DNA from: a virus
DNA: 31,891 bases
Direction: 5' to 3' (one strand)
Virus record (IMG/VR): IMGVR_UViG_3300045974_000990
Coordinates: 1 to 31,891 of that record
Both the position numbers and the translations under genes were made by a program. This document shows positions 26,338 through 29,061 of the stretch, one piece after another; position 1 is the stretch's first letter, and each line of letters starts with the position of its first letter. Below the pieces are notes generated by a model, which was not told the DNA's origin, searched no databases, and saw nothing but the letters and a program-made list of their open reading frames with translations.

Positions 26338-27552
26338 GTGACCCGCTACATCCTCGGCAGTCTGCTGACAGGGCGCCGCATTGTGGACCTGAACGTCGTA
26401 GACGGTCCGTGGTCCACCGCGATCAAGAGCACCGGTTCGGTTAGTTGCACTGTGGACCTCAACGATCCGGACATTCAGGTGCTCGGGTTGCGGAACTCGG
26501 CGGAAGTCGCGCAGACGTTCCTCGGCGTTGTGGAGGGAGATGTGATCAAGGAAGCTGGTCCTTTGTGGACCAGCACCTACTCGCGCGATGCCGGAACAAT
26601 GCAGCTCGGTGCGGCGAACATGGCCTCGTTGTTCGATCACCGACTCATCCTCCCCGTCCTCGCGCAGACTCTCTCCACCGACCTGTGGACGATCCCCGAC
26701 CCAGTAGACGCGACGAAAACGATCCCGAACCCGGCACTCTCCACCGTGTTCACGAACATCAGCCTTGCGACGAGGGCTAAGCGGCTCATTCAGCAAGCGT
26801 TGACATGGACGGGCGGCAACGTCCCCATCGTGTTCCAGGCGGACGAGGTTGAGACGCGCACGGAAACGATCCTCGGTACTGACTTCAAGTCGGTGTGGTC
26901 TGCCATTCAGGACCTCATGAACCGGGTGTCCGGGCCTGAGGTTGCCCTGATCCCCCGATTCACGACCGACAATCTTGGTGTTGAGTGGGTGCTGCGGACG
27001 GGGACGATCGCGCAACCGCTGGTCACGTCCAACTCGGTCCTGTTCTGGAATGTCACCGCAGCAGAAACCCCCGTCTCCGGTTTGGTGATCGATAAGGACG
27101 GCTCGAACATGGGTTCCCTGTCGTGGCAGACCGGTGGCCGGGCAATCGCTGACGTGCTGGTGTCCCGCGCGGCTGACCCGTTTCTGCTCGACGCCAAATA
27201 TCCGCTCATGGAAACCATGGATTCGTCACACACTGATGTGGTGTTGCAGGCCACGTTGGATGATTACGCACGGTCGGATGTGGCGTTGGGCCGCGCACCC
27301 ACCTCCGTGTGGTCGATGAACGTGCAAGCACACCCGACTGACCAGTACGGCAACCCGTCAGCCCCGTGGGTGGATCAGGTTTCGGTGGGCGATTTTGCTG
27401 ACCTGTACATTGCCCCCCTCGACCCGGTGACCGGGCTCGGGGACCTGTACTACCCCGAAGGCGGCACATTCCGGCACCGCATCACCAGCATCGCCGGCGA
27501 CGCGAAGGGCGAACAGATCAAACTCACATTCGCACCGAAAGTAGGGTCCTGA
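26338..27552 (+). CDS. Minor tail protein (tail-tip hub / Tal-like N-domain)
   Basis: A 404-residue protein from a GTG with GAAAGGTGA upstream. The N-terminal strand pattern (YILGSLLTGRRIVDLNVVDG, KSTGSVSCTVDLNDP) and the central IPRFTTDNLGVEWVLRTG and SRAADPFLLDAKYPLMETMD regions match actinophage minor tail proteins that form the tip hub beneath Dit. The C-terminal part (SVGDFADLYIAPLDPVTGLG) is beta-rich. No enzymatic motif seen. The next gene overlaps by TGATG. Confidence 0.82.
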   Translation: MTRYILGSLLTGRRIVDLNVVDGPWSTAIKSTGSVSCTVDLNDPDIQVLGLRNSAEVAQTFLGVVEGDVIKEAGPLWTSTYSRDAGTMQLGAANMASLFDHRLILPVLAQTLSTDLWTIPDPVDATKTIPNPALSTVFTNISLATRAKRLIQQALTWTGGNVPIVFQADEVETRTETILGTDFKSVWSAIQDLMNRVSGPEVALIPRFTTDNLGVEWVLRTGTIAQPLVTSNSVLFWNVTAAETPVSGLVIDKDGSNMGSLSWQTGGRAIADVLVSRAADPFLLDAKYPLMETMDSSHTDVVLQATLDDYARSDVALGRAPTSVWSMNVQAHPTDQYGNPSAPWVDQVSVGDFADLYIAPLDPVTGLGDLYYPEGGTFRHRITSIAGDAKGEQIKLTFAPKVGS

Positions 27553-28226
27553 TGGGTGACTACGCATCCCCTCCCGGCCCCGGCCTCGCCTCACTGGTCA
27601 GTGAGCTTCGCGACATCCGCGCGGAGCTGCGCACCCTGCAACGCCCGTCAGGTGTCGATGTTGGTGGTCTCCTGGCCCAAGTGCAGATGGCTCTCGCGAA
27701 CATCACCACGACGGTGACGACAGCGATCAACGCCCTTTCGTATACGCGTGCGGTGATCGACTCGAAGATCGCTAACCCGCCGGCCGGATCCGCTGTGACC
27801 GGGAACATCAGCGCCACCGGTGATATCAACCTCACCGGGGACCTGTACACCCCGCACGGGCTCGCCACTCCAGTAACCTCGGGCTATTTTGCTGCCTACA
27901 TCAACTTCGATGGGCGACTCGGGCGCACTGTTTCCGCCCGCCGGTACAAGCAAGACATCACCGCATGGGCGCCCGATGCGCAAGCAGTCTTCGCCCTGCG
28001 TTTGGTGACCTACCGCCTCAAGTCGAACGTGACAGGCATGGGCGACAAAGCACCTGTCGAAGTGGGAATGATCGCAGAAGAACTCGTCGCGCTGGGCCTT
28101 GGCTGGCTGGTGCTTTACATCAACGGCGAGGTCGAGGGCATCGCTTACGAGAAGATCGCCCTACTGCTTCTGCCTGTTGTGCAGGACCACGAAAAGCGTC
28201 TGCTCGCGCTAGAGGCTCGCCTCTAG
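27552..28226 (+). CDS. Short tail protein with peptidase S74 (intramolecular chaperone) domain
   Basis: A 224-residue protein. The N-terminal 70 residues form a coiled-coil segment (LVSELRDIRAELRTLQRP ...), followed by a short GNISATGDINLTGDLYT beta-repeat and the S74 domain: SARRYKQDI (catalytic-type S128, K133, D135), VEVGMIAEEL and IAYEKIALLLLPVVQDHEKR. S74 domains help trimeric fibres fold and then cut themselves off. The mature part here would be only about 127 residues, a very short appendage. Ends convergently with the minus-strand gene, overlapping it by 4 nt. Confidence 0.9.
   Translation: MGDYASPPGPGLASLVSELRDIRAELRTLQRPSGVDVGGLLAQVQMALANITTTVTTAINALSYTRAVIDSKIANPPAGSAVTGNISATGDINLTGDLYTPHGLATPVTSGYFAAYINFDGRLGRTVSARRYKQDITAWAPDAQAVFALRLVTYRLKSNVTGMGDKAPVEVGMIAEELVALGLGWLVLYINGEVEGIAYEKIALLLLPVVQDHEKRLLALEARL
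28209..28226. terminator. Perfect hairpin at convergent gene ends
   Basis: CTAGAGG-ctcg-CCTCTAG covers the last codons and stop of the S74 gene and, on the other strand, the stop of the exported-protein gene; each TAG is part of the stem. Outside the stem GCG/CGC can extend pairing with one bulge. There is no T-run, so it may act as a bidirectional mRNA 3' end rather than a strong terminator. Confidence 0.55.
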
Positions 28227-28735
28227 GCGCAAACGGCGTGGTCGATGTCGCCGTTACCCGACTGGCTGTCACAGAACGTGGCCGGGTCAACGATGTCACG
28301 CTGGCCGTAGTTGCCCGCATTCGGGTCGGTGACGATGAACGTGGGGATTGGCGTTCCTGCGGGCGCGTGGCCCGGCTCCCACGTCGCTCCCGCTGCGGCC
28401 CGCTGCCTGACTGGTGCCTTGACTGCGGCTGCGGCTTTCGCGGCTGCATCAGCGGCAGCCTGAGCGGCAGCAGCGTTGGCAGCATCAACAGCGGCCTGTG
28501 CGGCTGCTGCGGCTTCCTCCGCAGCGAGGGCTTCGGCTGCATTCACCTGAGACGTTGCGGTCGCATCCGCGAGAGCTTCCGGCGACGTGGGCGAATCCGC
28601 GGCAGATATCGGCTGGTCATGCAACACGAAATGTCGCGCCGTCGGGGTAGCGAGCGGGTTCGCGTAAGCGACCGCTGACCCACCCACAACGGCGATTGCA
28701 ACAGCGGTGACGATAGCCCACGTTTTGATTCCCAT
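28223..28735 (-). CDS. Exported Ala-rich protein with C-terminal Cys pair
   Basis: A 170-residue protein read on the minus strand. The ATG at 28735 starts a clean signal peptide, MGIKTWAIVTAVAIAVVGGS then AVAYA with probable cleavage before NPLATP. In-frame starts upstream (ATG 28747, TTG 28768) would only lengthen the N-terminus. The middle (about residues 55-110) is a nearly uncharged Ala-rich helix with heptad-like AA repeats. The C-terminal domain (PTFIVTDPNAGNYGQRDIVD..., FCDSQSGNGDIDHAVCA) has two Cys that may form a disulfide outside the membrane. It is transcribed against the late operon from its own upstream region. Candidate lysogenic-conversion, superinfection-exclusion or cell-surface protein; no family recognised. 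Confidence 0.75.
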   Translation of the reverse strand: MGIKTWAIVTAVAIAVVGGSAVAYANPLATPTARHFVLHDQPISAADSPTSPEALADATATSQVNAAEALAAEEAAAAAQAAVDAANAAAAQAAADAAAKAAAAVKAPVRQRAAAGATWEPGHAPAGTPIPTFIVTDPNAGNYGQRDIVDPATFCDSQSGNGDIDHAVCA

Positions 28736-28821
28736 AGCACAGACCATAGACCTGTCTACCCCAGACAAGCAATTAAATACTCACATTCACCCCCACAGTG
28801 GGGCGACCAGATAGGGGCCAC
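28736..28821. promoter_or_regulatory. Divergent intergenic region with two palindromes
   Basis: Between the minus-strand gene and the + strand membrane gene, the inverted repeats TGTCT-acccc-AGACA (28753-28767) and CCCCAC-a-GTGGGG (28791-28803) flank the only AT-rich block nearby (CAATTAAATACTCACATTCA, 28770-28789). This looks like a regulated promoter for the minus-strand gene, with a TATTTAAT-like -10 on that strand. No convincing -35 element could be assigned. Confidence 0.5.
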
Positions 28822-29061
28822 ATGCCAGCTTGGCTCCCGTACGTGCTCGGCGGCATCGTCGCCTTCGCCGTCGGCTACCTGACCTTCATCGCCGCGAGAC
28901 AGAACACCAACCTGGCACGCACAACCCGACTCGAGGTGCGCCTAGACACCTTGGAAGGCAAAGTCGGCCGGCGCGACGACTACGTGAACGTGCTCAGGGG
29001 TCACATCGATTCCGGCCAACCGCCGCCATCGCCGCCGTACCCCGATGGTTATTGGGAATAG
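28822..29061 (+). CDS. Small membrane protein with coiled coil
   Basis: A 79-residue protein. AGGGG (28813-28817) fits the ATG at 28822; a GTG at 28798 is in frame but inside the palindrome. One N-terminal transmembrane helix (WLPYVLGGIVAFAVGYLTFI) is followed by a charged helix (RTTRLEVRLDTLEGKVGRRD) and a Pro-rich end. Such one-helix/coiled-coil proteins stand next to holins in many actinophages and may assist lysis. Confidence 0.75.
   Translation: MPAWLPYVLGGIVAFAVGYLTFIAARQNTNLARTTRLEVRLDTLEGKVGRRDDYVNVLRGHIDSGQPPPSPPYPDGYWE

Follow-up and report, generated by a model that had tools for sequence, protein, structure and literature searches.

Which function is served by a small gene that is read against the late genes of a phage and terminates inside the gene of its tail fibre? 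This question is raised by a locus in the IMG/VR virus record IMGVR_UViG_3300045974_000990, analyzed here over its 31,891 bases (the window). The window derives from a tailed phage, recognized by genes for TerL, portal, protease, capsid, tape measure, minor tail and S74 fibre proteins, the last-named carrying an S74 domain detected by Pfam PF13884 with an E value of 6e-6, above the cut-off. The gene in question lies tail to tail with the S74 fibre gene (Table 1), and its late-gene surroundings comprise the minor tail protein and fibre upstream and a collagen-like protein and a GDSL hydrolase downstream. The collagen-repeat protein (PF01391; 29068-29655, +) has a hydrophobic start and a Cys-containing domain at its end, representing a second anchor-stalk-tip-like protein, encoded on the late strand. 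The GDSL-type lipase/acylhydrolase (PF13472; 30149-31891, +) is placed within the late genes and is possibly a tail enzyme.

Table 1. Coordinates of the features at the fibre locus of the window.
Feature	Position	Strand	Basis
Tail-fibre/minor tail gene with C-terminal Peptidase_S74 chaperone domain	27552-28226	+	Pfam PF13884, PHROGs
Co-varying fibre tip (final ~137 fibre codons)	from about 27813	+	Mantel tests
CTAG common to the stop codons of both convergent genes	28223-28226		Sequence; 4-nt overlap recurs in most homologues
Anchor-stalk-tip protein gene, 170 aa, ATG start	28223-28735	-	ORF/translation, same-position homologues, purifying selection
Two-Cys tip GTPIPTF...HAVCA, 44 aa	28226-28357	-	Alignment and tip definition
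Ala-rich stalk codons (limits approximate)	28400-28558	-	Translations
Hydrophobic N-terminal export/anchor segment, residues 6-23	28667-28720	-	Hydropathy scan; in 23/23 homologues
-10-like box TATGGT, 7 nt before ATG	28743-28748	-	TANNNT conserved among homologues
Dyad TGTCT-N5-AGACA, within promoter spacer	28753-28767		Sequence; not conserved
-35-like TTGCTT, 18 nt from -10, beside AT-rich block	28767-28772	-	Alignment on -10 box; weak
Dyad CCCCAC-N1-GTGGGG	28791-28803		Sequence; not conserved

The original prediction described an Ala-rich secreted protein with a small two-Cys C-terminal domain, transcribed against the late genes. The translation bears out the Ala-rich middle and the C-terminal domain, with both cysteines located in the last ~20 residues and none in the N-terminal part, and the ORF indeed runs opposite to the surrounding late genes. 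Regarding the clean signal peptide that had also been proposed, the hydrophobic segment (WAIVTAVAIAVVGGSAVA, KD 2.09) was confirmed; cleavage between VAYA and NP is plausible, with an uncleaved anchor as the alternative. Neither a lipid anchor nor a wall-sorting signal was recognized in the exported protein. In some homologues the Ala-rich stalk is swapped for Pro/Glu-rich stalks. Structural modeling of the tip gave a weak model (mean pLDDT 72, pTM 0.49), for which Foldseek returned no match, and PDB sequence matches stayed at chance level.

Conservation, together with pairwise dN/dS values of 0.06-0.39 among the homologues, identifies the ORF as a gene and not a chance frame. Most differences fall on third positions, the highest dN/dS being that of L072 versus L069, a pair with a replaced tip. 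A spurious antisense ORF in G+C-rich DNA might be suspected from the Ala-rich composition and from the lack of any database match for the window protein by itself. However, conservation at at least 20 loci, the third-position substitutions with the dN/dS range given above, and a conserved start codon and promoter already contradict this explanation, leaving it a negligible probability.

The family proved accessible only by detour. Nothing convincing was retrieved for the window protein from Pfam, PHROGs, NCBIfam, phage and plasmid records or large collections, in agreement with the predicted status as an unrecognized family; an initial idea of an Excalibur-like domain was dropped, as Pfam gave no match. 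The original prediction had proposed a homologue search with the C-terminal region. Queried directly with either the window protein or the tip, the phage, plasmid, viral_contigs and genome_contigs collections yielded no credible relative; relatives were reached only via the neighboring TerL and minor tail genes. The TerL search of viral_contigs delivered 51 loci; the minor tail protein was present in two out of 42 records searched, and in both of them the S74 fibre gene is followed by an exported ORF on the reverse strand. Searching with a minor-tail alignment gave 11 viral loci. The gene is carried by eight distinct phages, i.e., the window and L067, L068, L069, L072, L075, L076, and L077; in L074 the fibre gene is followed by lysis genes and the exported gene is absent, and L070, L071, and L073 break off before its presence can be judged. 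Tip-alignment searches returned 17 viral loci, several of them already found, and all 17 showed a convergent fibre gene at the same place. In total, the exported gene was located at the same position in 19 further viral contigs, with L087 and L088 being identical in sequence.

Extension toward bacterial genomes linked the gene to prophages. Within 400 Microbacteriaceae genomes, a membership based on the centre genome Microbacterium lacus and family grouping, four credible loci were recovered with the type-A tip, each adjoining an S74 fibre gene, and every credible tip-domain match fell in a fibre-bearing genome. Weak tip matches in G142 and G239 had no adjoining fibre and were discarded. An independent fibre-profile survey detected S74 matches in 24 of the 400 genomes. 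Nine of these 24 possess an anchor-stalk-tip gene, always on the opposite strand, while the other 15 have no recognized copy. The gene is convergent at a shared gene end in six of them, G157 included, the loci being prophage-like, and it is separated from the fibre gene by 250 bp in G356, 1.3 kb in G102, and 6 kb in G324. Among 396 genomes of the order, no case was found outside Microbacteriaceae; the one new match of the order-wide search, G803, was rejected as an antisense frame without S74 fibre.

Isolate phages contributed no member. Other tip types had no match in these phages, and the tips of the family are absent from the 50,697 phage records searched which, in conjunction with the lack of a credible Pfam, PHROGs or NCBIfam match, indicates a family missed by current annotation. 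No description of such a family was found in open-licence papers, which is no proof of novelty. Related tail genes occur in Microbacterium phages OscarSo and Isperia and in Arthrobacter phage Galaxy, without the exported gene at this place. Bifidobacterium phage BP742P1 contains, at the corresponding position behind its fibre gene, an ORF in reverse orientation (L004:11883-12191, -), which lacks an export segment and resembles a fibre C-terminus; it was therefore not counted as a homologue and is perhaps the remnant of an invertible fibre cassette.

Upstream of the exported gene, a TANNNT box ending 4-9 nt before the start was found in 17 of 23 homologue regions in comparison to 16 of 330 control starts, and Shine-Dalgarno-like sites in none of the 23 in comparison to 86 of the 330 controls. 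The count of 17 uses the start codons as first chosen; some of the six exceptions gain a TANNNT with a neighboring start codon, a post hoc adjustment that was left out. The box and the missing Shine-Dalgarno-like site together point to a promoter of leaderless type. A longer ORF with TTG start (28223-28768, -) would run through this promoter and place the -10 box inside the gene, for which reason the ATG at 28735 is preferred. The poor -35 explains why a simple sigma-70 scan detected no promoter in the window. Alignment on the -10 box, involving some choices by hand, revealed that the region about 16-23 nt upstream is rich in A+T, which accounts for the AT-rich block noticed in the original prediction. 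Contrary to that prediction, at least one more such block lies nearby, G+C being lower at 29045.

Both predicted dyads are present exactly as described. The 88-bp intergenic stretch contains four dyads with 5-bp arms versus 0.6 in shuffles (p 0.011); for 6-bp arms, the excess was not significant (p 0.12). In the relatives examined, both dyads are missing, and we consequently rejected them as conserved operators; the conserved element is a TANNNT box, lying 6-8 nt ahead of the start codon. As a separate observation, a GGGG(G)TAGA motif (late strand: TCTACCCC) recurs in the stretch that separates the exported gene from the following late gene, seen upstream in L069, L075, L081, L086, and L087 as well as in the promoter spacer of the window.

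The claim that this is an exported accessory gene with independent promotion, carried by a temperate phage and belonging to an undescribed family, is well supported by the conserved anchor-stalk-tip architecture, the leaderless-type promoter of its own and the occurrence in bacterial genomes. It is supported further by the relatives G013 and G023, where integrase and repressor/ImmA-like genes lie downstream (recognized by reading translations), from which we infer that the window phage is temperate as well. Typical traits of a moron were seen, namely the own promoter pattern, the non-late strand, and the absence from L074 and some S74-bearing genomes.

The feature which the original prediction had missed, and which is now the strongest, is the near-constant pairing with the S74 fibre and the joint inheritance of both tips. 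Fibre and exported protein were each divided into an N-terminal part and a tip by motif rules that we chose, and compared by Mantel tests (Spearman) in 21 non-redundant pairs, whose sequences are related to each other. Fibre tip and protein tip correlated with r 0.557 at p 0.001, the minimum reachable with 1000 permutations. The protein tip was not significantly correlated with its own N-terminal part or stalk (r 0.17-0.19; p 0.10 for 0.17), and fibre tip versus fibre N-terminal part gave r -0.11. When three genome loci were added, in two of which the genes are separated, the tip-tip r was 0.392 (p 0.0012), and it was 0.399 when controlling for both N-terminal parts in this enlarged set. With the minor tail as control, r was 0.568 (n=19); the N-terminus of the fibre itself tracks the minor tail (0.83). 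As the protein tip follows the fibre tip more than its own stalk, the unit of exchange appears to consist of fibre tip plus protein tip, and the two would be exchanged as a single cassette across both gene ends.

Individual loci illustrate this pattern. L069 and L072 have both N-terminal parts in common and differ in both tips. L095 combines a window-like stalk (0.63) with an L077-like tip (0.83) and a fibre tip of the L077/L140 kind, and shares with L077 the same 11-nt gene overlap. The pairing is not one to one: fibres of the WGRY class occur with two tip types, and L085 and L086 have the protein tip in common and differ in the fibre tip.

The main rival to a functional matching is plain linkage of neighboring tips with recombinogenic flanks, as adjacent tips with repetitive flanks could be transferred together without it. 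The protein would then be a lysogenic-conversion surface protein in another service, e.g., adhesion, wall change or competition, with its tie to the fibre reflecting one recombination block. The genes do adjoin, low-complexity DNA in both flanks favors exchange, the G102 tip does not fit the class of its fibre, and unrelated tips such as DUF732 in G157 fill the same slot. The S74 domain is, furthermore, possibly removed from the mature fibre and may hence not be the receptor-binding part. However, the tip tracks the fibre tip and not its own stalk, although the stalk is equally adjacent, and in one case (G324) the tips still fit each other with the genes 6 kb apart. We regard this other-service explanation as rather unlikely, though a serious one.

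The constant place at the fibre gene and the co-variation of the tips could likewise be read as signs of a late or virion-associated fibre partner, acting in assembly, maturation or release of progeny from debris and having no function in the lysogen. In contrast, the gene lies on the strand opposite all late genes, has its own promoter and encodes an exported N-terminus, and it is absent in relatives with complete tails (L074, OscarSo, Isperia), which makes such a partner improbable.

Considering its position, export segment, promoter, and co-variation, superinfection exclusion is the most economical function, and we give roughly even chances to a fibre-matched, surface-displayed exclusion protein, with export, lysogenic expression and exclusion inferred from these features. 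The prophage-expressed moron would supply the cell envelope with a protein made of an export/anchor segment, a low-complexity stalk presumably long enough to span the cell wall, and a small Cys-containing tip. While the late operon is silent in the lysogen, the gene would be read from its own promoter into a leaderless mRNA. During lytic growth, late transcripts extending past the shared gene end are expected to counteract its expression. The displayed tip, covering the host receptor or binding to the fibre, would block adsorption of phages having the same class of fibre tip. A need to match the fibre would also explain the exchange of the two tips as one cassette. Somewhat more tentatively, we propose that actinobacterial prophages harbor an undescribed family of surface guardians paired with the fibre, in which attachment tip and shield tip form one exchangeable cassette across the ends of two convergent genes, so that host range and self-exclusion might switch together by one recombination.

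Exclusion genes located beside receptor-binding genes are known from coliphages; it is little documented how a temperate phage can change its attachment tip without loss of self-exclusion. The sequence record suggests joint movement of both tips. If this is true, the tip type would help to predict the fibre class and the phages resisted by the lysogen, providing a testable rule for a Gram-positive group with poorly known phage receptors.

Three known systems allow a comparison. DUF732 proteins (Pfam PF05305) can occupy the same location: the exported protein of G157 (L156/L132) has a DUF732 tip in the same slot and with the same 4-nt overlap with the S74 fibre, whereas the window tip has no DUF732 match. 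A further opposite-strand exported protein with DUF732 is encoded ~1.7 kb downstream of an S74 fibre in G099 (L148). Llp of T5 and Cor of T1, N15, phi80, and HK022 are receptor-blocking exclusion lipoproteins, likewise small, exported and encoded next to a tail-tip or receptor-binding gene; in coliphages, the exclusion proteins encoded in this position correlate with the receptor, linking the type to receptor specificity (PMC9586334, PMC13164509). This adjacency was found in the window and its relatives as convergence with the S74 fibre, whose receptor binding is assumed. Unlike Llp and Cor, the window protein is encoded on the opposite strand, has a long stalk, belongs to Gram-positive hosts and has no lipobox Cys, its two cysteines both lying in the C-terminal tip. 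Ltp of the TP-J34 type (Pfam PF07553) is also encoded by a prophage gene opposite the late genes and consists of anchor, spacer and small active domain (PMC3952083), a likeness in architecture read from the sequence. In contrast to the window protein, Ltp targets the tape measure protein and sits in the lysogeny module instead of at the fibre gene. Neither the window protein nor any of the scanned homologues matched PF07553; the same search detects a true Ltp in G133 (3e-38). The locus concerned (L143) is devoid of the fibre-paired gene, and its Ltp gene follows the S74 fibre gene at a distance of ~7.9 kb and is encoded on the opposite strand. With no sequence match to any family searched, the window protein is best read as one that would work like Cor/Llp and be built like Ltp, while being a member of neither family.
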